Assembly (NCBI RefSeq): GCF_000826655.1 | Contig: NZ_JXJO01000004.1 | Span: 186,001 to 250,000, forward strand | Origin: Psychroserpens damuponensis | GTDB taxonomy: Bacteria > Bacteroidota > Bacteroidia > Flavobacteriales > Flavobacteriaceae | Direction: 5' to 3' | DNA: 64,000 nt | Shown here: positions 26,805 through 56,295 of the stretch, piece by piece | Layout of the letters: each line of letters starts with the position of its first letter | How positions within the stretch are numbered: the stretch's first letter is position 1 | Made by a program: the position numbers and the translations under genes | Notes under the pieces: model-generated | What the model was told of the DNA's origin: nothing | The model's database searches: none | What the model saw: only the letters and a program-made list of their open reading frames with translations

Positions 26805-27200
26805 GGGGTCGACTGGTTTTGACAGCGAGACTCATTAAACGGTAAGCACGTCGTGTAATGACATTGAAACACGTAAAAGGCTAGGTCAACTTTTTAATCG
26901 GCGAGAATAACTACGCTTTAGCTGCCTAATCTGAATTATAGTAAGATTAAGCTCATTTCTACTAGGTAGAAAGGCTAAATGTCTCCAGAAAGCCTTGGTT
27001 AATGGCGTTCTTATTTGAGGCATCGAAAATATTAACTTAGATCGTGTGGCGCTTTGACGCACTTTCGAGATTAAGAAGATAAGTTATAAGTGGGTTGTTT
27101 TTTGCCAGCTTATAATCGAAAACCTAATGAAAAACTAAACGTGTAGAAGGCTCTTTAATAGCTTGTTTGGACGAGAGTTCGATTCTCTCCGACTCCACCA
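26805..27200 (+). ncRNA. ssrA: tmRNA (SsrA)
   Basis: The 5' end GGGGTCG (26805-26811) pairs with CGACTCC (27190-27196) to form the acceptor stem, followed by encoded ACCA. The T-arm-like GAGTTCGATTCTC lies just before the 3' end. The 5' segment GACTGGTTTTGACAGCGAG is typical of Bacteroidota tmRNA. The tag frame at 26900-26929 encodes GENNYALAA and then TAA, so stalled proteins would receive (A)GENNYALAA for proteolysis. tmRNA with SmpB rescues stalled ribosomes. Confidence 0.97.
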
Positions 27201-48287: not shown

Positions 48288-48368
48288 GACACACTTAAAA
48301 TCAATAGCTTACAATAAGTTAAAGGTTTCTATAATAATAGGAATCTTTTTCTTTTTTACTCAAATATA

Positions 48369-48399
48369 TTTGAAAACTAAAAATTGATACTTATATTTG
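48369..48399 (+). promoter_or_regulatory. trp operon promoter (TTTG-N19-TATATTTG)
   Basis: TTTG at 48369-48372 and TATATTTG at 48392-48399 are separated by 19 bp, the consensus spacing for Bacteroidota sigma-ABfr promoters. The transcript would begin about 10 bp before the leader peptide ATG. Confidence 0.7.
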
Positions 48400-48414
48400 A
48401 AAATTATTACAAAC

Positions 48415-48477
48415 ATGAACACAAATTTAAATCATACTTGGTGGTGGAATTCTAGAAACGAAAACGTCGTGAACTAA
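48415..48477 (+). CDS. trpL: trp leader peptide (three consecutive Trp codons)
   Basis: ATG at 48415 opens a 20-residue frame ending TAA at 48475-48477. It contains His-Thr-Trp-Trp-Trp-Asn at codons 7-12 (TGG at 48439-48447). A ribosome pausing here when tryptophan is scarce would leave the sequence after about 48460 free to form an alternative structure with the terminator. The location (after a strong promoter, before the terminator and trpE) makes the assignment secure. The sequence itself is not conserved enough to judge otherwise. Confidence 0.9.
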   Translation: MNTNLNHTWWWNSRNENVVN

Positions 48478-48528
48478 CCCTATAGGTATATTTAAAATAA
48501 CATATCAAAAAGGCTTGTCTATCACGAC
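48466..48528 (+). promoter_or_regulatory. Candidate trp antiterminator pairing
   Basis: GTCGTGA (48466-48472, inside the leader gene end) is exactly complementary to TCACGAC (48522-48528), which covers the terminator loop and the first bases of its descending arm. The two structures are therefore mutually exclusive. A ribosome at the leader stop would cover 48466-48472 and free the terminator; one stalled at the Trp codons would not. Confidence 0.6.
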
Positions 48529-48539
48529 AAGCCTTTTTT
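48507..48539 (+). terminator. trp attenuator terminator
   Basis: AAAAAGGCTTGTC pairs with GACAAGCCTTTTT (48526-48538) around TATCAC, with a T run. It lies 46 bp before trpE, where a terminator makes sense only as an attenuator. Confidence 0.9.
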
Positions 48540-48584
48540 CATTTTTAAACAGTACTACAATTGTACTGAAACAAATTAGCATAC

Positions 48585-49985
48585 ATGAAAACATTTAGTT
48601 TATATACACATTACAAAAAAATATTAGCAGACACCATTACACCTGTGAGTATTTACTTAAAAATAAGAGATAAATTCTCAAATAGTATACTATTAGAGAG
48701 TAGTGATTATCATGCCAACGATAATAGTTTTTCTTATATATGTTTTAATCCTATCGCGTCAATTAAAGTGGCTAATGATGTTATAGAACAGCATTATCCT
48801 GATGGAAGCTCAAAAACTAACAACGCTTTAAATATTTCGGTTACTGAAGAAATCCACAAGTTTACTAAGCGATTTAAAGTCAATTCTGATGAAGAGTTTA
48901 AGTTCATTAATAACGGTATTTTTGGTTATACAGCTTATGATGCTGTTAAATATTTTGAAGATATTGAGATTAGCAAAAAACCAGATTCATTAGAAATTCC
49001 TGATATTTACTATGCGGTTTATCAAAATATCATTGCCATAAATCACTTTAAAAACGAAGCCTATGTTTTTGCACATTGTTTTGAAGCCGAAAACAATATT
49101 GATGAAGTTTTACAACTTATAGGTTCAAAGAATTTTGCGTCTTATAATTTCAAAACAGACTCCAATATCACATCAAATCTTACAGATGATGAATATAAAG
49201 CACAAGTAGATTTAGCAAAAACACATTGCGCAAGAGGCGATGTGTTTCAATTGGTACTTTCAAAAAAATTCTCTCAAGCCTTTAAAGGTGATGAATTTAA
49301 CGTATATCGAGCATTGCGAAGTATAAATCCATCACCTTACCTTTTTTATTTTGACTACGGAAATTTTAAAATTTTTGGTAGCTCGCCAGAGGCACAACTT
49401 GTCGTTAATAATCAACAAGCAGAAATTCATCCTATTGCAGGTACGTTTAAAAGAACAGGAAACGATGAAGAAGATCAAAAATTAGCAAAAGAATTAGCTG
49501 AAGATATCAAAGAAAATTCAGAACATGTTATGTTAGTTGATTTAGCTAGAAACGACCTAAGTCGTCATGGAAGTGAAGTTAAAGTAGAAACATATAGAGA
49601 AGCGCAGTTTTTCTCTCACGTTATACATTTAGTGAGCAAAGTAACCGGTAAAGTGCATGACAACACAGCAACCATGCAAGTTGTTGCAGACACTTTTCCG
49701 GCAGGAACTTTAAGTGGAGCACCAAAACATAAAGCAATGCAATTGATTGAAAAATATGAAAAAACTAGCAGAGCTTTTTATGGAGGCGCCATTGGTTTCA
49801 TGGATTTTAACGGCAATTATAATCACGCCATTATGATACGAACTTTTATGAGTAAAAACCATCATTTACATTGGCAAGCAGGCGCAGGACTGGTATCAAA
49901 GTCTGTACCCGAAAATGAATTACAAGAAGTCTATAATAAATTAGGAGCGTTAACAAAAGCAATTGAAATGGCTGAAGAAATATGA
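48585..49985 (+). CDS. trpE: Anthranilate synthase component I
   Basis: The 466 residues have the N-terminal Trp-site segment NSILLESSDYHANDNSFSY (an LLESS-like feedback motif) and the chorismate domain: HPIAGTFKRTGND, VMLVDLARNDLSRHGSE, FPAGTLSGAPKHKAMQLIE and RAFYGGAIGFMDFNGN. It makes anthranilate from chorismate with ammonia from TrpG. Feedback by tryptophan is expected from the LLESS motif. TrpG overlaps by 4 bp. Confidence 0.96.
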   Translation: MKTFSLYTHYKKILADTITPVSIYLKIRDKFSNSILLESSDYHANDNSFSYICFNPIASIKVANDVIEQHYPDGSSKTNNALNISVTEEIHKFTKRFKVNSDEEFKFINNGIFGYTAYDAVKYFEDIEISKKPDSLEIPDIYYAVYQNIIAINHFKNEAYVFAHCFEAENNIDEVLQLIGSKNFASYNFKTDSNITSNLTDDEYKAQVDLAKTHCARGDVFQLVLSKKFSQAFKGDEFNVYRALRSINPSPYLFYFDYGNFKIFGSSPEAQLVVNNQQAEIHPIAGTFKRTGNDEEDQKLAKELAEDIKENSEHVMLVDLARNDLSRHGSEVKVETYREAQFFSHVIHLVSKVTGKVHDNTATMQVVADTFPAGTLSGAPKHKAMQLIEKYEKTSRAFYGGAIGFMDFNGNYNHAIMIRTFMSKNHHLHWQAGAGLVSKSVPENELQEVYNKLGALTKAIEMAEEI

Positions 49986-50545
49986 AAGTATTAGTAATAG
50001 ATAACTACGACAGTTTTACATACAACTTGGTGCACTATTTAGAAGACCTAAACTGTGACGTAATAGTAAAACGAAACGACAAGCTTACGCTTGAAGAGGT
50101 TGACAATTTTCAAAAAATTGTTTTATCTCCAGGACCTGGAATACCTGATGAAGCAGGATTATTAAAAACCATCATAAAAACTTATGCACCTACCAAAAGT
50201 ATTTTAGGTGTCTGTCTTGGTCAACAAGCCATTGGCGAAGTTTTTGGAGGCTCGCTTATAAATTTGAACGATGTTTATCATGGTGTAGCAACTCACGTAA
50301 AAATTACAGTTGATGATGAAGTGCTATTCAAAAACATGGATAAATCTATAGAAGTAGGTAGATACCACTCTTGGGTTGTAAACCCTAATTTACCAGATGA
50401 ACTAGAAGTTACATCGGTTGATAGTAACGGACAAATAATGTCATTACGTCATAAAATTTACGATGTTAAAGGCGTACAATACCATCCAGAAAGCGTGCTA
50501 ACTCCACATGGAAAACAAATTTTAGAGAACTGGGTGAATAGTTAG
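49982..50545 (+). CDS. trpG: Anthranilate synthase component II (glutamine amidotransferase)
   Basis: The 187 residues form a class I amidotransferase: VIDNYDSFTYNLVHYLED, SPGPGIPDEAG, the catalytic cysteine in ILGVCLGQQAIGEVFGG, and the His-Glu pair in VQYHPESVLTPHG. It supplies ammonia to TrpE. The gene could also serve folate synthesis (PabA), but in this operon the trp role is clear. Start overlaps the trpE end by 4 bp. Confidence 0.95.
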   Translation: MKVLVIDNYDSFTYNLVHYLEDLNCDVIVKRNDKLTLEEVDNFQKIVLSPGPGIPDEAGLLKTIIKTYAPTKSILGVCLGQQAIGEVFGGSLINLNDVYHGVATHVKITVDDEVLFKNMDKSIEVGRYHSWVVNPNLPDELEVTSVDSNGQIMSLRHKIYDVKGVQYHPESVLTPHGKQILENWVNS

Positions 50546-50552
50546 CACTGTC

Positions 50553-50621
50553 ATTACGTAATTGACGCGGAATCCTTTCTAAATTGAAGATGAATTAAAA
50601 CGATTCCCACTGTCGTGGGAA
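50553..50621 (+). repeat. REP-like element between trpG and trpD
   Basis: It starts CTGTCATTACG, contains GGAATC...GATTCC, and ends with TTCCCAC-TGTC-GTGGGAA (50604-50621). The GTCATTACG/GGAATC layout is the usual flavobacterial repeat architecture. It is non-coding. Confidence 0.5.
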
Positions 50622-50627
50622 AAACAT

Positions 50628-51620
50628 ATGAAAAACATACTAAATAGATTAATAAACCACGAAAGCATTTCTAGTACAGAAGCTAAAAATGTGTTGGTTA
50701 AAATTTCCGAAGGAAAATACAATCAAAGTCAAATCGCTTCTTTTCTCACAATTTATATGATGAGAAGTATCACTCTAGAAGAGTTACAAGGGTTTAGAGA
50801 TGCCCTATTAGAATTGTGTATTCCTGTAGACTTATCAGAGTTTAATGCCATCGATTTATGTGGTACTGGTGGTGATGGTAAAGACACATTTAATATCTCA
50901 ACCATTGCGTCTTTTATTACTGCAGGTGCAGGAGTTAAAGTTGCCAAACATGGCAATTATGGTGTATCATCTGCTTCGGGATCGTCAAACGTTATGGAAG
51001 CTTTAGGGATTCATTTTTCTAATAAATCAGATTTTTTAAAATACTCCATAGACCAAGCTGGCATATGTGTTTTGCATGCTCCTTTATTTCATCCAGCTAT
51101 GAAAAATGTAGCTCCAATTCGTAAGGATCTAGGCGTAAAAACATTTTTTAACATGTTGGGACCAATGGTAAATCCATCGTTCCCAAAAAATCAAATGGTT
51201 GGTGTGTTTAATCTAGAATTACAACGTATTTACGGATATCTTTACCAAAACACAGATAAAAATTATAGCATCGTACATGCACTCGATGGTTATGATGAAA
51301 TTTCCCTTACCGGAAATGCGAAGATTATATCAAATACATCTGAAAGCATGTTAAGCCCATCAGATTTAGGATTAAAGCCAATAGAACAATCTGAAATATT
51401 TGGTGGTTCCTCTGTAAAAGCGGCTGCCAAAATTTTTAAGAATATTATCAATTGCAAAGGAACAGAAGCTCAAAACAATGTGGTTTGTGCCAATGCAGGT
51501 TTAGCTATTGCAACCGTTAAAGGGATTTCACTTCAAGAAGGCTTTTATTTAGCACAAGACAGTTTAGGCAGTGGTAGAGCAAAAGCTAGTCTCGATAGAC
51601 TAGTTGAATTGAGTAGATAA
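50628..51620 (+). CDS. trpD: Anthranilate phosphoribosyltransferase
   Basis: The 330 residues have IDLCGTGGDGKDTFNISTIASF (pyrophosphate-binding), VAKHGNYGVSSASGSSNVMEALG and HPAMKNVAPIRKDLGVKTFFNMLGP. These are all hallmarks of TrpD, which transfers phosphoribose to anthranilate. The gap to trpG is 82 bp, filled by a repeat. Confidence 0.96.
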   Translation: MKNILNRLINHESISSTEAKNVLVKISEGKYNQSQIASFLTIYMMRSITLEELQGFRDALLELCIPVDLSEFNAIDLCGTGGDGKDTFNISTIASFITAGAGVKVAKHGNYGVSSASGSSNVMEALGIHFSNKSDFLKYSIDQAGICVLHAPLFHPAMKNVAPIRKDLGVKTFFNMLGPMVNPSFPKNQMVGVFNLELQRIYGYLYQNTDKNYSIVHALDGYDEISLTGNAKIISNTSESMLSPSDLGLKPIEQSEIFGGSSVKAAAKIFKNIINCKGTEAQNNVVCANAGLAIATVKGISLQEGFYLAQDSLGSGRAKASLDRLVELSR

Positions 51621-51743
51621 CCTGATGCTAAACCAATTTATTCATGACTATCTATTTCTAAATTAAGATGTTTATGAATTTTCGATTTTAGCTTGACAAC
51701 CAATAAAAACCTGTTACACAATCAGGTCAACGAAAACCACAAG

Positions 51744-52529
51744 ATGGATATATTACAAAAAATAGTAAACGACAAACGCATAGAAGTTAACCTTCGTAAG
51801 CAACTCATTCCTATAAAACAACTAGAGCAATCTATCCTATTTGAAAGAGATACGTTTTCGTTATCCGAAAAACTAAAAGTAAGCACTACAGGAATCATTG
51901 CAGAACACAAAAGACGATCGCCTTCAAAACAAGTTATTAATCATGATTTAAATGTTTTTGATGTTGCCAAAGGTTATGAAAGTGCAGGTGTTTGTGGAAT
52001 GTCTGTATTGACAGATGGTAAATATTTTGGAGGTAGTCTAGACGATTTACTCACAGCAAGAGCAAGTTGTAATTTACCTCTATTAAGAAAAGAGTTTATT
52101 ATTGACGAGTATCAAATTATAGAAGCCAAAGCATATGGAGCCGATGTCATTTTACTCATTGCAGCAATTTTAACAAAAGCTGAAATTAAACAGTTTTCTG
52201 AACTCGCTAAAACACTACATTTAGATGTTTTACTAGAAGTGCACAATGAAAAAGAACTGCATAAATCTTTAATGCCAAGTCTAGATATGTTAGGCGTTAA
52301 TAATAGAAATTTAAAAACATTTACAGTTAGTCTAGAAATCAGCAAGCAATTAAGTGAATTGATTCCAAACGATTTTGTAAAAGTATCTGAAAGCGGTATA
52401 AGTAATATTAACGCTATAAAAACTTTACAACCTTATGGCTACAAAGGGTTTTTAATAGGAGAGAATTTTATGAAAACTGATAATGCAGGAGACAGTGCTA
52501 AACAATTTATTAAAGACTTACAATCATGA
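51744..52529 (+). CDS. trpC: Indole-3-glycerol phosphate synthase
   Basis: I place the start at the ATG at 51744 (MDILQKIVNDKRIEVNLRK), because the extra 17 codons of the longer frame lie in non-coding-like sequence. The 261-residue TIM barrel has TTGIIAEHKRRSPSKQVINHD (the AEHKRRSPS catalytic lysine segment), VCGMSVLTDGKYFGGSLDDL, LPLLRKEFIIDEYQI and GVNNRNLKTFTV. It closes the indole ring. trpF overlaps by 4 bp. Confidence 0.95.
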   Translation: MDILQKIVNDKRIEVNLRKQLIPIKQLEQSILFERDTFSLSEKLKVSTTGIIAEHKRRSPSKQVINHDLNVFDVAKGYESAGVCGMSVLTDGKYFGGSLDDLLTARASCNLPLLRKEFIIDEYQIIEAKAYGADVILLIAAILTKAEIKQFSELAKTLHLDVLLEVHNEKELHKSLMPSLDMLGVNNRNLKTFTVSLEISKQLSELIPNDFVKVSESGISNINAIKTLQPYGYKGFLIGENFMKTDNAGDSAKQFIKDLQS

Positions 52530-53161
52530 AAATAAAAGTCTGCGGAATGAAAAATGAAAGCAACATCTTAGATGTTTCACAATTACATCCAGATTTTATG
52601 GGTTTCATTTTTTACAAAAAATCACCACGTTATTTTAATGGTACCATTCCTAAGTTATCAAAAGACATTCAAAAAATTGGTGTTTTTGTAAATGAAACCT
52701 ATGATTATATCAAAGGAATCGTCAACAAACATAACTTACAAGGCGTACAATTACATGGTAATGAATCTCCAGAATTATGTAAACAACTACAAGACCTAAA
52801 TTGTATAGTTATAAAAGTATTTTCTATTAAAGACACTTTTGACTTTAAAAGCTTAGAACCTTATGAGAATGTTTGCGATTACTATTTGTTTGATACCAAA
52901 GGAAAGCAACCTGGAGGAAATGGCTATACGTTTGATTGGAGTGTTTTAAAAAATTACACCTCTATAAAACCCTATTTTTTAAGTGGCGGAATTGGGCTAA
53001 ATGAAACACATCAAATCGCTACATTTTTAAAAAGACCCGAAGCTATATTTTGCCATGCAATAGATGTAAATAGCAAATTTGAAAACAACCAAGGGTTAAA
53101 AATTGTAGATAAATTAGAAACGTTTAAAAATGTAATTCAGAGCAACGTAAAAAATCTTTAA
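52526..53161 (+). CDS. trpF: Phosphoribosylanthranilate isomerase
   Basis: The 211-residue TIM barrel has IKVCGMKNESNILDV (KVCGM), FMGFIFYKKSPRY, VGVFVNETYDYIKGIV-type strand, LQGVQLHGNESPELCKQL and YLFDTKGKQPGGNGYTFDW. It carries out the Amadori rearrangement in tryptophan synthesis. The start overlaps trpC by 4 bp, indicating coupled translation. Confidence 0.94.
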   Translation: MKIKVCGMKNESNILDVSQLHPDFMGFIFYKKSPRYFNGTIPKLSKDIQKIGVFVNETYDYIKGIVNKHNLQGVQLHGNESPELCKQLQDLNCIVIKVFSIKDTFDFKSLEPYENVCDYYLFDTKGKQPGGNGYTFDWSVLKNYTSIKPYFLSGGIGLNETHQIATFLKRPEAIFCHAIDVNSKFENNQGLKIVDKLETFKNVIQSNVKNL

Positions 53162-53203
53162 TAGAGATGCAAGTTTAGCGCTGCATGACAAAAACATATA
53201 ATA

Positions 53204-54385
53204 ATGACATACAACATCAACGACGAAGGCTATTATGGAGAATTTGGAGGTGCATACATCCCAGAAATGCTCTATCCAAACGTAGAAGAGTTACGACAAA
53301 ACTACCTCAAAATAATGGCAGAACCTTCTTTCAAAGAAGAATTTGACCAATTATTAAAAGATTATGTTGGTCGCCCTTCTCCACTCTATTTTGCCAAGCG
53401 ATTAAGCGAAAAGTATACTACAAAAATCTATCTCAAACGTGAAGATTTAAATCATACTGGCGCACATAAAGTGAACAATACTATCGGCCAAATTTTAATG
53501 GCAAAACGCTTAGGCAAAACAAGAATTATTGCCGAAACTGGAGCAGGACAACATGGTGTAGCAACGGCAACTGTTTGTGCTTTAATGGGCATTAAATGCA
53601 TTGTTTATATGGGAGAAATTGATATTACTCGCCAGGCACCAAACGTAGCTCGCATGAAAATGTTAGGAGCCGAAGTAAGACCAGCACTATCTGGAAGTCG
53701 CACGCTTAAAGATGCCACCAATGAAGCCATTCGCGACTGGATAAACAATCCTGTAGACACACATTATATTATTGGTAGCGTAGTTGGTCCTCATCCTTAT
53801 CCAGATATGGTGGCGCGTTTTCAGGCTATAGTTTCCAAAGAAATTCAATGGCAACTAAAAGATAAAGAAGGGACTACAAAACCAAATTACGTCATTGCTT
53901 GCGTTGGTGGAGGCAGTAATGCTGCTGGTGCTTATTACCATTATTTAGACGATACAGATGTTAAACTCATTGCGGTTGAAGCTGCAGGTAAAGGCATTCA
54001 TTCTGGTGAAAGCGCTGCGACGTCTGTTTTAGGTCGCGAAGGTATTATTCATGGTAGTAAAACCTTACTAATGCAAACTAACGACGGGCAAATTACCGAG
54101 CCTTACTCCATTTCGGCAGGTTTAGATTATCCTGGTGTTGGGCCAATGCATGCACATTTGTACAAATCTGGTCGTGCTGAATTTATCTCGATTACAGATG
54201 ATCAAGCCATGACTGCTGGTTTAGAATTAAGTCAGTTAGAAGGTATCATTCCTGCCATTGAAAGCTCTCACGCCTTTGCTGTTTTTGAACAGAAAACATT
54301 TAAACCAGATGATATTGTCGTGATTAATTTATCAGGTCGAGGTGATAAAGATTTACAAAATTATATTGAACATTTCAAATTGTAG
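53204..54385 (+). CDS. trpB: Tryptophan synthase beta chain
   Basis: The 393 residues carry the PLP lysine in LNHTGAHKVNNTIGQILMAK, ETGAGQHGVATATVCALMG, VGGGSNAAGAYYHYL (phosphate-binding GGGSN) and SAGLDYPGVGPMHAHL. Length matches TrpB1. It joins indole and serine to make tryptophan as an alpha2-beta2 complex with TrpA. The gap to trpF (42 bp) holds a small inverted repeat (ATGCA...TGCAT). Confidence 0.97.
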   Translation: MTYNINDEGYYGEFGGAYIPEMLYPNVEELRQNYLKIMAEPSFKEEFDQLLKDYVGRPSPLYFAKRLSEKYTTKIYLKREDLNHTGAHKVNNTIGQILMAKRLGKTRIIAETGAGQHGVATATVCALMGIKCIVYMGEIDITRQAPNVARMKMLGAEVRPALSGSRTLKDATNEAIRDWINNPVDTHYIIGSVVGPHPYPDMVARFQAIVSKEIQWQLKDKEGTTKPNYVIACVGGGSNAAGAYYHYLDDTDVKLIAVEAAGKGIHSGESAATSVLGREGIIHGSKTLLMQTNDGQITEPYSISAGLDYPGVGPMHAHLYKSGRAEFISITDDQAMTAGLELSQLEGIIPAIESSHAFAVFEQKTFKPDDIVVINLSGRGDKDLQNYIEHFKL

Positions 54386-54390
54386 AATTA

Positions 54391-54474
54391 TGGCGTTACC
54401 ACAAGGGTCAGGCTTTCGGCTATATCTTTTTTGCTTTTAATGGCAAAAAAGGATGCCGCCTCAATCCTTAACGC
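54391..54474 (-). repeat. REP-like element, family A, between trpB and trpA
   Basis: On the minus strand it begins GCGTTAAGGAT and ends GGTAACGCCA, the same ends as the element at 26637-26713. It holds a TTTTTTGC...GCAAAAAA hairpin at 54427-54450. Confidence 0.65.
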
Positions 54475-54491
54475 AAAACCGAACTAAATTT

Positions 54492-54571
54492 CGTCATGCT
54501 GAACTTGCTTCAGCATCTCACAAGAAATAAAAACAATAATAATGTGACCCTCAAATAAATTCAGGGTGACG
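54492..54571. repeat. REP-like element, family B, between trpB and trpA
   Basis: It opens CGTCATGCTGAA and closes TTCAGGGTGACG, inverted ends. ATGCTGAA-CTTGC-TTCAGCAT is a perfect hairpin at 54496-54516. The sequence is the flavobacterial CTGAACTTGTTTCAGCAT-type interspersed repeat. It creates the false longer start of trpA. Confidence 0.7.
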
Positions 54572-54583
54572 ACTCAAGTAAAC

Positions 54584-55348
54584 ATGAACAGAATAAATCA
54601 AAAACTAAAAGAAGACAAAAAACTTCTATCTATTTACTTTTCCGCAGGATATCCAAACCTCAACGATACAGTATCTATCATTGAAAACTTAGAAAAAAGT
54701 GATATTGACATGATAGAAATAGGATTACCGTTTAGTGATCCATTAGCAGATGGACCAACTATACAAGCAAGTTCTACACAAGCTTTAAAAAATGGAATGA
54801 CCACTGATATTCTTTTTAGTCAATTAAAAGACATTCGAAAAACGGTTTCTATACCATTAATAATTATGGGCTATTTTAACCCTATACTGCAATATGGTGT
54901 CGAGGCATTCTGTAAAAAATGCCAAGAGATTGGTATCGACGGACTCATAATACCTGATTTACCTGTAGATGTTTATAATGAGCAGTATAAATCCATTTTT
55001 CAGAAATATGGCTTAATAAATGTGTTTTTAATTACACCTCAAACATCTATGGAGCGTATTAGGTTTATTGATTCTATTTCCGAAGGATTTATATATATGG
55101 TAAGTAGCGCTAGTGTGACAGGAGGTCGCTCTGGTTTTGGAGATGAGCAAACGTCATACTTTAAACGCATTGCTGATATGAATCTTAAAAACCCGCAAAT
55201 CGTAGGTTTTGGTATTTCTACCAATGAAACATTTAAGCAAGCAACGCAATATGCAAAAGGCGCTATTATTGGAAGTGCATTTATTAAACATTTAGACAAA
55301 AACCGTTTATCTAAAATTTCAGAATTTACAACTTCAATATTGAATTAA
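54584..55348 (+). CDS. trpA: Tryptophan synthase alpha chain
   Basis: I choose ATG at 54584 (MNRINQKLKEDKKLLSIYF; 254 residues). The GTG at 54566 lies in the repeat. The barrel has SIYFSAGYPNLNDTVS, MIEIGLPFSDPLADGPTIQA (the FSDPLADGP active site), IDGLIIPDLPVDVYNE and SSASVTGGRSGFGDEQ. It releases indole from indole-glycerol phosphate. The operon probably ends here; DUF805 genes follow with their own -7 boxes. Confidence 0.95.
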   Translation: MNRINQKLKEDKKLLSIYFSAGYPNLNDTVSIIENLEKSDIDMIEIGLPFSDPLADGPTIQASSTQALKNGMTTDILFSQLKDIRKTVSIPLIIMGYFNPILQYGVEAFCKKCQEIGIDGLIIPDLPVDVYNEQYKSIFQKYGLINVFLITPQTSMERIRFIDSISEGFIYMVSSASVTGGRSGFGDEQTSYFKRIADMNLKNPQIVGFGISTNETFKQATQYAKGAIIGSAFIKHLDKNRLSKISEFTTSILN

Positions 55349-55387: not shown

Positions 55388-55774
55388 ATGAAATGGTATT
55401 TAAAAGTCGTAAGAGATAATTACGCAAACTTTAATGGAAGAGCAAGACGTAAGGAGTACTGGATGTTTGTTCTGTTTAATATGATTTTCGCTTATGGTGG
55501 AATGATAATTTTAGGATTATTAGCTGCTGCTTTAGAAAGTCCGTTTATTTTGTTAATCGTTTATATCTATCTTTTTGCTGTTATGATTCCTTCAATTGCA
55601 GTTGCAGTGAGAAGAATGCATGATGTTGGAAAAAGTGGATGGTATATATTAATTCCTATTTACAGTCTTATTCTTGTTTTAACTGAAGGTGATAAAGGAA
55701 CTAACCAATATGGTCCTGATCCAAAATCGGCAGATAATGAAGAAATTAACACAATAGGTACTAAAGAAATTTAA
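55388..55774 (+). CDS. DUF805 membrane protein (first of two)
   Basis: The 128 residues begin MKWYLKVVRDNYANFNGRARRKEYWMFVLFNMI, the DUF805 signature (F-x-G-R-A-R-R-x-E-Y-W), and have three hydrophobic segments ending with the VAVRRMHDVGKSGWY pattern. The function is unknown. The gene at 55888 is a close paralogue, so this is a tandem duplication. A terminator lies between them. Confidence 0.9.
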   Translation: MKWYLKVVRDNYANFNGRARRKEYWMFVLFNMIFAYGGMIILGLLAAALESPFILLIVYIYLFAVMIPSIAVAVRRMHDVGKSGWYILIPIYSLILVLTEGDKGTNQYGPDPKSADNEEINTIGTKEI

Positions 55775-55798
55775 TAATTTCTCTGTATTATAAATAAG

Positions 55799-55828
55799 AA
55801 CCTACTTCAAAAGAGTAGGTTTTTTTTA
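55799..55828 (+). terminator. Terminator after the first DUF805 gene
   Basis: AACCTACT pairs with AGTAGGTT around TCAAAAG, followed by a T run. Confidence 0.85.
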
Positions 55829-55855
55829 TTCAAAAAAATGAACTACTATTAAATA

Positions 55856-55863
55856 TATGTTTG
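55856..55863 (+). promoter_or_regulatory. Candidate -7 box (TATGTTTG) of the second DUF805 gene
   Basis: TATGTTTG matches TAnnTTTG, 24 bp before the ATG at 55888. Confidence 0.4.
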
Positions 55864-55887
55864 ATATTTATAATCTAAAATTTATAT

Positions 55888-56295
55888 ATGTATTGGTATT
55901 TACAAGTGATTAGATATAATTATGCCAATTTCTCAGGACGTGCAAGACGTAAAGAGTACTGGATGTTTGTTTTAATTCAGCTTATCATAGTTATATTAGT
56001 AATAATGTATCAATCTTTTGTTGACGATTTATTTGATACACCAATTGTAGGCACACTCTTGGGTATTTATATTTTGGCAACATTAATTCCGTGGCTAGCT
56101 CTCAATGTTAGACGAATGCATGATATTGGCAAAAGTGGTGGTTACGTATTTATTAATTTAATTCCGGTCATTGGTCGCATTTGGTATATAATTCTTGTAG
56201 CTACCGAAGGAGAATTTGGTGCTAATAATTATGGGCCAGATCCAAAATTAGATTATTCTGATGATATCGATGACATAGGTAGGATAGACGAATAA
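55888..56295 (+). CDS. DUF805 membrane protein (second of two)
   Basis: The 135 residues start MYWYLQVIRYNYANFSGRARRKEYWMFVLIQ and share most of the GRARRKEYWMFVL and NVRRMHDIGKSGGY positions with the previous gene. It has its own -7 box and terminator before it, so the copies are independently transcribed. Whether they differ in function is not visible. Confidence 0.9.
   Translation: MYWYLQVIRYNYANFSGRARRKEYWMFVLIQLIIVILVIMYQSFVDDLFDTPIVGTLLGIYILATLIPWLALNVRRMHDIGKSGGYVFINLIPVIGRIWYIILVATEGEFGANNYGPDPKLDYSDDIDDIGRIDE

Follow-up and report, generated by a model that had tools for sequence, protein, structure and literature searches.

In Escherichia coli, the trpL leader combines a Trp-rich leader peptide, a terminator, an alternative helix that is freed when the ribosome stalls, and a protector helix that forms without translation.

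In Bacteroidota, the Bacteroid-trp RNA family was reported in 2010 by Weinberg et al. (PMC2864571), whose Table 1 marks the motif as cis-regulatory ("y") and, under switch, as "n". A Bacteroid-trp RNA before the trp operon of F. psychrophilum has been compared with the E. coli leader (PMC6414381), and strong clues of leader-peptide attenuation have been described before amino-acid biosynthesis operons of the same species (PMC9723704). Supplements aside, the literature searched holds neither an experimental test of Bacteroid-trp attenuation nor an account of the switch pairing. The leader described here is not a new system, because it belongs to this family (Rfam RF01692) and attenuation was already suggested in PMC9723704; the element and its probable logic are known, and it is not new in kind. 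It shares with the F. psychrophilum leaders (PMC6414381, PMC9723704) a suggested attenuation and a Bacteroid-trp RNA before a trp operon, here a probably flavobacterial one, but carries a putative antiterminator pairing that was not seen described for those leaders.

Results

A cmscan search of the window (the whole 64,000-nucleotide stretch of DNA analysed) recovered RF01692, "Bacteroidete tryptophan peptide leader RNA", scoring 65.8 bits (cut-off 49) and complete over model positions 1–131, as the single match in the genome; no T-box or other Rfam cis-regulator exceeded its gathering score within 48300–48620, where RF01692 alone passes. The leader resembles the family in scoring above this threshold, in lying before trp genes, and in its P1 helix, Trp codons, and terminator 5′ arm, but the match ends at 48519, and the Rfam model contains neither the terminator 3′ arm nor the antiterminator pairing. 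Downstream, trpE starts with an ATG at 48585 and is followed by six further trp genes (Table 1). Matches to trpG_papA, trpD, TrpC, trpB, and trpA lie above their NCBIfam cut-offs, and those to TrpE (best TIGR00564, 431 bits vs 517.7) and TrpF (best 139.9 vs 215) lie below. Elsewhere in the window, a Flavo-1 RNA (RF01705, 50.2 bits, cut-off 42) sits in the trpB–trpA gap at 54402–54489 on the minus strand, antisense to the trp operon; two adjacent ORFs with similar N-terminal halves (128 and 135 aa, presumably DUF805 proteins) directly follow trpA at 55388–56295; and a tmRNA (RF00023, 140 bits) is found at 26805–27200.

Table 1 Features of the trp leader and operon, in positions of the window
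Feature	Position	Strand	Basis
Primary promoter, Bacteroidota type, TTTG-N19-TATATTTG	48369–48399	+	Direct reading; motif counts in relatives
Upstream TTTG box	48369–48372	+	Direct reading
TATATTTG box, 19 nt past TTTG	48392–48399	+	Direct reading
Leader peptide ORF, 20 codons, MNTNLNHTWWWNSRNENVVN, stop included	48415–48477	+	Direct reading; kept in relatives
Leader ORF details: ATG; codons; TAA	48415–48417; to 48474; 48475–48477	+	Direct reading
Protector helix P1: 48426–48447 (pre-Trp and Trp codons) with 48476–48497 (post-stop)	48426–48497	+	Rfam consensus structure; fold
Three Trp codons (TGG ×3), proposed sensing site	48439–48447	+	Direct reading; WWW or WW in relatives
Putative antiterminator strand GTCGTGA (codons 18–19 plus one base of codon 20)	48466–48472	+	Covariation; masked folds
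Possible inner antiterminator: TAA.CCT with terminator 5′ arm AGG.TTG, small hairpin between	48475–48519	+	MFE of 48466–48528
Intrinsic terminator, 13 bp, 6-nt loop, T-run (arms 48507–48519 and 48526–48538)	48507–48538	+	Direct reading; fold
Proposed target of the strand, TCACGAC (loop and top of terminator 3′ arm)	48522–48528	+	Covariation; masked folds
trpE, trpG, trpD, trpC, trpF, trpB, trpA	48585–55348	+	NCBIfam

An earlier note on this DNA had pointed to a consensus promoter with N19 spacing, a 20-codon leader peptide with three consecutive Trp codons, a strong terminator before trpE, and a 7-bp complement of the terminator loop and arm within the last leader codons, all of which are borne out at the positions in Table 1.

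RF01692 matches 208 of 299 genomes of the window's family at E 0.001 (184 over the cut-off), 42 of 395 genomes across a phylum sample (38 over the cut-off), and 35/59, 25/81, and 16/80 genomes of three other families (f12, f11, and f2, respectively); these samples overlap, and searches of more than 40 genomes used stricter filters that lose weak matches. Among 14 named control genomes, Bacteroides ihuae alone matches. The promoter type and the Rfam families suggest that the window comes from a flavobacterium. For comparison, 180 leaders were taken, comprising 57 loci from the genome, family, and phylum searches, 60 fetched by place, and 63 from f12, f11, and f2. L151 was removed throughout (wrong ORF picked), leaving 179 rows that represent 177 places, since L113/L153 and L114/L173 are identical places. 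L001 is the leader of the window, and leader ORF counts are drawn from L001–L117.

Of these 117 leaders, 113 start with ATG and the other four have GTG or TTG in its place; the 113 ATG-started leaders encode WWW (111) or WW (2). Rfam-positive leaders were, by construction, picked by a model that itself contains the Trp codons, and regions upstream of trpE in Rfam-negative genomes were therefore examined. TrpE was searched for in 80 of 91 such genomes, leaving 11 aside, and matched at E 1e-60 in 62 of the 80; 49 upstream regions were examined, with 14 of 63 trpE matches left out, including L189 at a contig edge. A leader ORF with WW or WWW is present in 47 of the 49 regions, compared with 5 of 1960 shuffled stretches. 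The two exceptions are L207, where an ORF at the leader place keeps one Trp codon, and L221, in whose trpE upstream region no leader was seen. Judged by its ORF, the leader precedes trpE almost without exception in the sample examined, and the conservation of Trp codons in relatives, a check proposed in the earlier note, holds in both sets. As a side observation, the 200 bases upstream of trpE in L207 contain strand and terminator, with Trp-Ser-Ser replacing Trp-Trp-Trp, and L207 is possibly a leader losing its sensor.

Transcription is expected to start near 48404, so that some 11 nt of 5′ UTR would precede the leader ORF in the window, where the start codon lies 15 nt past the TAnnTTTG-type box. 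This box occurs within 60 nt upstream in 174 of 179 leader rows (4.8% of shuffled 60-nt stretches) and within 90 nt in 176; both boxes with a spacer of 17–23 nt are found in 115 of 179, the spacer being 19 nt in 76. Of the 179 rows, 29 (28 of the 177 places; shuffles 0.07%) have the start codon exactly 5 nt past TAnnTTTG; 19 of these are in f1 and 10 in f2, with L006, L077 (GTG), and L166 as examples. In F. psychrophilum the box occupies positions −12 to −5 (PMC9723704), so these 29 rows look leaderless or bear one extra base; the same paper puts leaderless mRNAs at 5.5%. The window leader has no Shine-Dalgarno sequence, and similar letters appear within the last 20 nt in 7 of 179 rows.

The region 48400–48560 folds better than 200 of 200 shuffles (z −4.24). 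Its terminator has −17.6 kcal/mol, and a genome-wide search for the exact terminator pattern returned this hairpin alone, read on both strands. P1 forms in folds without a ribosome. Cognate P1 strands beat non-cognate strands of the same family in 7582/11772 comparisons in f1, 315/506 in f12, 367/462 in f11, and 44/72 in f2; the P1 region of the window alone reaches a fold z of only −0.7.

The exact complement of GTCGTGA comprises four bases of the loop and the three uppermost bases of the terminator 3′ arm. Taken alone this match is borderline: when the 53-nt post-Trp stretch was shuffled 2000 times, 104 shuffles reached 7 Watson-Crick pairs with the hairpin; by score, in a 22-nt stretch, it is reached by 2 of 100 shuffles. 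Only with the relatives counted is the 7-bp match, as judged by sequence comparison, well beyond chance. Across the 179 rows, the longest complement between post-Trp stretch and terminator hairpin is 7 nt in 95, 8 nt in 44, 6 nt in 21, 9 nt in 12, 10 nt in 6, and 4 nt in 1. The best run falls at the usual place in 165 rows and wholly within the 5′ arm in nine.

For base-pair counts, 168 of the 179 rows were anchored by motif, yielding 72 distinct strand/target pairs of eight base pairs each; omitting the 11 motif-less rows (L114, L115, L117, L150, L154, L168, L171, L173, L174, L176, L179) favours the switch reading, as they include rows that do not fit. In the proposed helix, 517 of 576 cells are paired; controls with the partner shifted by 1 to 3 give 114–294. 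Pairs 1–4 are fixed in part by the anchor motifs, which hardly touch pairs 5–8; the latter by themselves are paired in 247 of 288 cells. Two-sided changes are seen at five of the eight pairs (pairs 1, 5, 6, 7, and 8 in 1, 3, 20, 4, and 12 rows, where rows are sequences rather than independent events and were counted without a tree), so that the search for compensatory changes suggested in the earlier note gave a positive answer. Examples of strand/target compensation are GTTGGTTC/GAACCGAC and GTTGATTC/GAATCGAC in f2, and strand GTCGTAAG with target CTTACGAC in f11 and f12. Pairs fail among the 72 distinct rows at pair 1 (18), pair 6 (1), pair 7 (9), and pair 8 (31). RNAalifold on segment-to-target alignments was uninformative: for f1 and for the pooled alignment it gave five strand pairs, and otherwise it returned the upper end of the terminator.

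Cognate strands outperform terminators of other families in 5532/6386 comparisons for f1, 1898/2250 for f2, 2819/3266 for f12, 2231/3266 for f11, and 159/164 for f3, with L150 left out because its terminator was miscalled. In 124 of the 165 distinct leaders, no more than 5 of 100 shuffles reach the cognate score. A terminator was called in 44 leaders of the Rfam-negative set; in 19 of them no more than 10 of the 200 shuffles match the strand, where 2.2 such leaders would be expected, and the other 25 miss this 5% threshold. Within this set, L224, L225, and L228 carry strand/target pairs with quite different letters; L191, L195, L199, L200, L211, L215, L218, and L220 have their best run away from the usual place or target, and L223 and L229 have a complement of only 5 nt.

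Of 113 leaders, 109 have the strand core 18–22 nt past the last Trp codon (the 9-nt distance called for L005 is a pattern artefact, its strand lying at +17), while the stop codon falls 6, 9, 12, 15, 21, 24, 27, or 39 nt past the Trp codons, and thus before, inside, or after the strand. Since the strand's distance is fixed while the stop wanders, selection seems to act on the strand-to-Trp distance. Given the size of the ribosome footprint, it seems to hold the strand where a Trp-stalled ribosome would leave it bare and a ribosome at the stop codon would cover it.

In the MFE structures of all 161 distinct segment-to-target regions, bases between strand and terminator engage the terminator 5′ arm; these regions were defined so as to exclude the lower 3′ arm. 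Shuffle comparison gives the inner antiterminator part only a modest advantage (family means of z from −0.91 to −1.39) and, in the window, none (z −0.09). Duplexes with a leader's own 5′ arm average −8.99 against −6.98 for shuffles in f12 and −8.19 against −7.46 in f11; in f1, which includes the window, the value is −4.05 against −3.74 for shuffles and −4.41 with the arms of other families, and in f2 it is worse than shuffled. As the main antiterminator, a duplex of the post-segment with the 5′ arm is thus unsupported by shuffle comparison in f1 or f2. A strand of 8–10 nt against the 5′ arm is present in L114, L168, L171, L173, and L174 (f2) and in L115 (f3); L125, L142, and L179 complete the nine rows with a 5′-arm best run (L114/L173 being one place). 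These f2 and f3 leaders pair as in E. coli, in what is seemingly the same orthologous leader. A separate leader in the window's own genome (L242, contig C24), upstream of hisG (169318–169860, minus strand), has a His leader ORF MNFISLHHHFHVIAQAR, a 12-bp terminator between this ORF and hisG, and, past the His codons, TCAAGCG, able to pair with CGTTTGA in the terminator 5′ arm; it looks like the 5′-arm type.

The dependence of the pairing on ribosome position was modelled in four states, with a 30-nt ribosome mask of our own choosing and folds beginning at 48406, two bases past the box-predicted start. With RNA exposed to 48526–48531, the best antiterminator pair stands at a probability of 0.91–1.00 when the ribosome is on Trp codon 1 or 3 and at 0.00 when it is at the stop; without a ribosome, from 48526 to 48531, the values are 0.00, 0.04, 0.54, 0.49, 0.18, and 0.01. 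The terminator outcompetes the antiterminator in each of the four states, both at full length and with RNA exposed only to 48534; complete, it has −17.6 kcal/mol, against −9.1 kcal/mol for the 7-bp antiterminator duplex. Under the ribosome masks, a form of the folding also proposed in the earlier note, the Trp-stalled state favours the antiterminator only on an incomplete hairpin. Because the complete terminator prevails in every modelled state, the models imply that the switch must be kinetic, with timing deciding the outcome. The helix would act only while the loop and upper 3′ arm have emerged and the lower 3′ arm has not, approximately when polymerase is at the T-run.

Discussion

The trp operon in the window is very probably controlled by ribosome-mediated transcription attenuation. 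The parts, Trp codons, covarying pairing, and fixed distance come from sequence comparison and the state dependence from computation; from these we infer ribosome stalling, ribosome–polymerase coupling, and a response to tryptophan. In the proposed mechanism, RNA polymerase would begin transcription some 11 nt upstream of the leader ORF. If Trp-tRNA is plentiful, the ribosome would reach the stop codon and cover GTCGTGA, allowing the terminator to form. When Trp-tRNA is short, it would stall on the three TGG codons, break P1, and bare GTCGTGA, which could then pair with the terminator loop and upper 3′ arm as they leave the polymerase; bases past the stop codon perhaps also take the terminator 5′ arm. 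The hairpin would remain incomplete while polymerase is at the T-run, and trpEGDCFBA would be transcribed. Without a ribosome, P1 would form and termination be favoured. Tight ribosome–polymerase coupling in Bacteroidota is assumed throughout. The attenuation logic put forward in the earlier note, in which a finishing ribosome covers the strand and a Trp-stalled one exposes it, gains support from covariation, fixed spacing, and masked folds.

The same note supposed that the leader works as in E. coli, and this stands for the logic and not for the details. Like trpL, the leader has an ORF for a Trp-rich peptide, a terminator, a helix that a stalled ribosome would free, and a protector helix. 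Unlike trpL, its strand would grip the loop and 3′ arm, whereas the E. coli antiterminator takes the 5′ arm; it has no Shine-Dalgarno sequence and a short or no 5′ UTR; and its P1 encloses the switch strand rather than containing it.

That the classic E. coli geometry nevertheless governs here, with pairing between post-stop sequence and 5′ arm decisive and that between GTCGTGA and the loop secondary, seems unlikely. It would accommodate the engaged 5′ arm in all 161 MFE structures, the six rows with a long 5′-arm strand among the nine with a 5′-arm best run, and the own-arm duplexes that beat shuffles in f12 and f11; the pairing that covaries, however, is the loop pairing, and own-arm duplexes are hardly above shuffles and not above other families' arms in f1, and worse than shuffles in f2.

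Two further readings would dispense with the ribosome or with the switch. A leader that senses a ligand, riboswitch-like or protein-bound, with translation of the ORF irrelevant, would fit a structured and conserved RNA whose Rfam model is an RNA structure, but we consider it very improbable: ORF, frame, and Trp run are kept, tandem Trp codons precede trp genes, and the "n" under switch in Table 1 of PMC2864571 points the same way. A riboswitch without translation was rejected on the grounds that the ORF is retained with alternative start codons, GTG or TTG replacing ATG in place at 4 of 117 loci, and with a stop codon that moves. It is scarcely credible, finally, that the terminator is a constitutive damper to which ORF and strand are bystanders; such a damper would agree with the full terminator being the most stable structure in all four modelled states, and is opposed by the compensatory changes in strand and loop, their fixed spacing to the Trp codons, and the presence of the leader upstream of trpE in 47 of the 49 Rfam-negative regions.

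We regard it as evenly balanced whether the trp attenuators of Bacteroidota constitute a separate design, in which a peptide lacking a Shine-Dalgarno sequence is encoded on an (almost) leaderless RNA and a stalled ribosome frees a strand for timed capture of the loop, followed by invasion of the 3′ arm, rather than for an equilibrium 2:3 swap; some lineages would then have moved to the 5′ arm, one seemingly orthologous leader using both geometries.

Together, these analyses provide comparative evidence for E. coli-style logic upstream of trpE, both in the family of the window and in further families matching RF01692, within a phylum reported to be mostly without Shine-Dalgarno sequences (PMC9723704). 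They supply the half of the switch that is missing from the Rfam model, and add a covarying switch helix, a loop-and-3′-arm geometry, a strand-to-Trp distance that stays fixed while the stop wanders, predicted near-leaderless starts, and a few relatives that use the 5′ arm. The kinetic reading, if true, implies close coupling of ribosome and polymerase in Bacteroidota.
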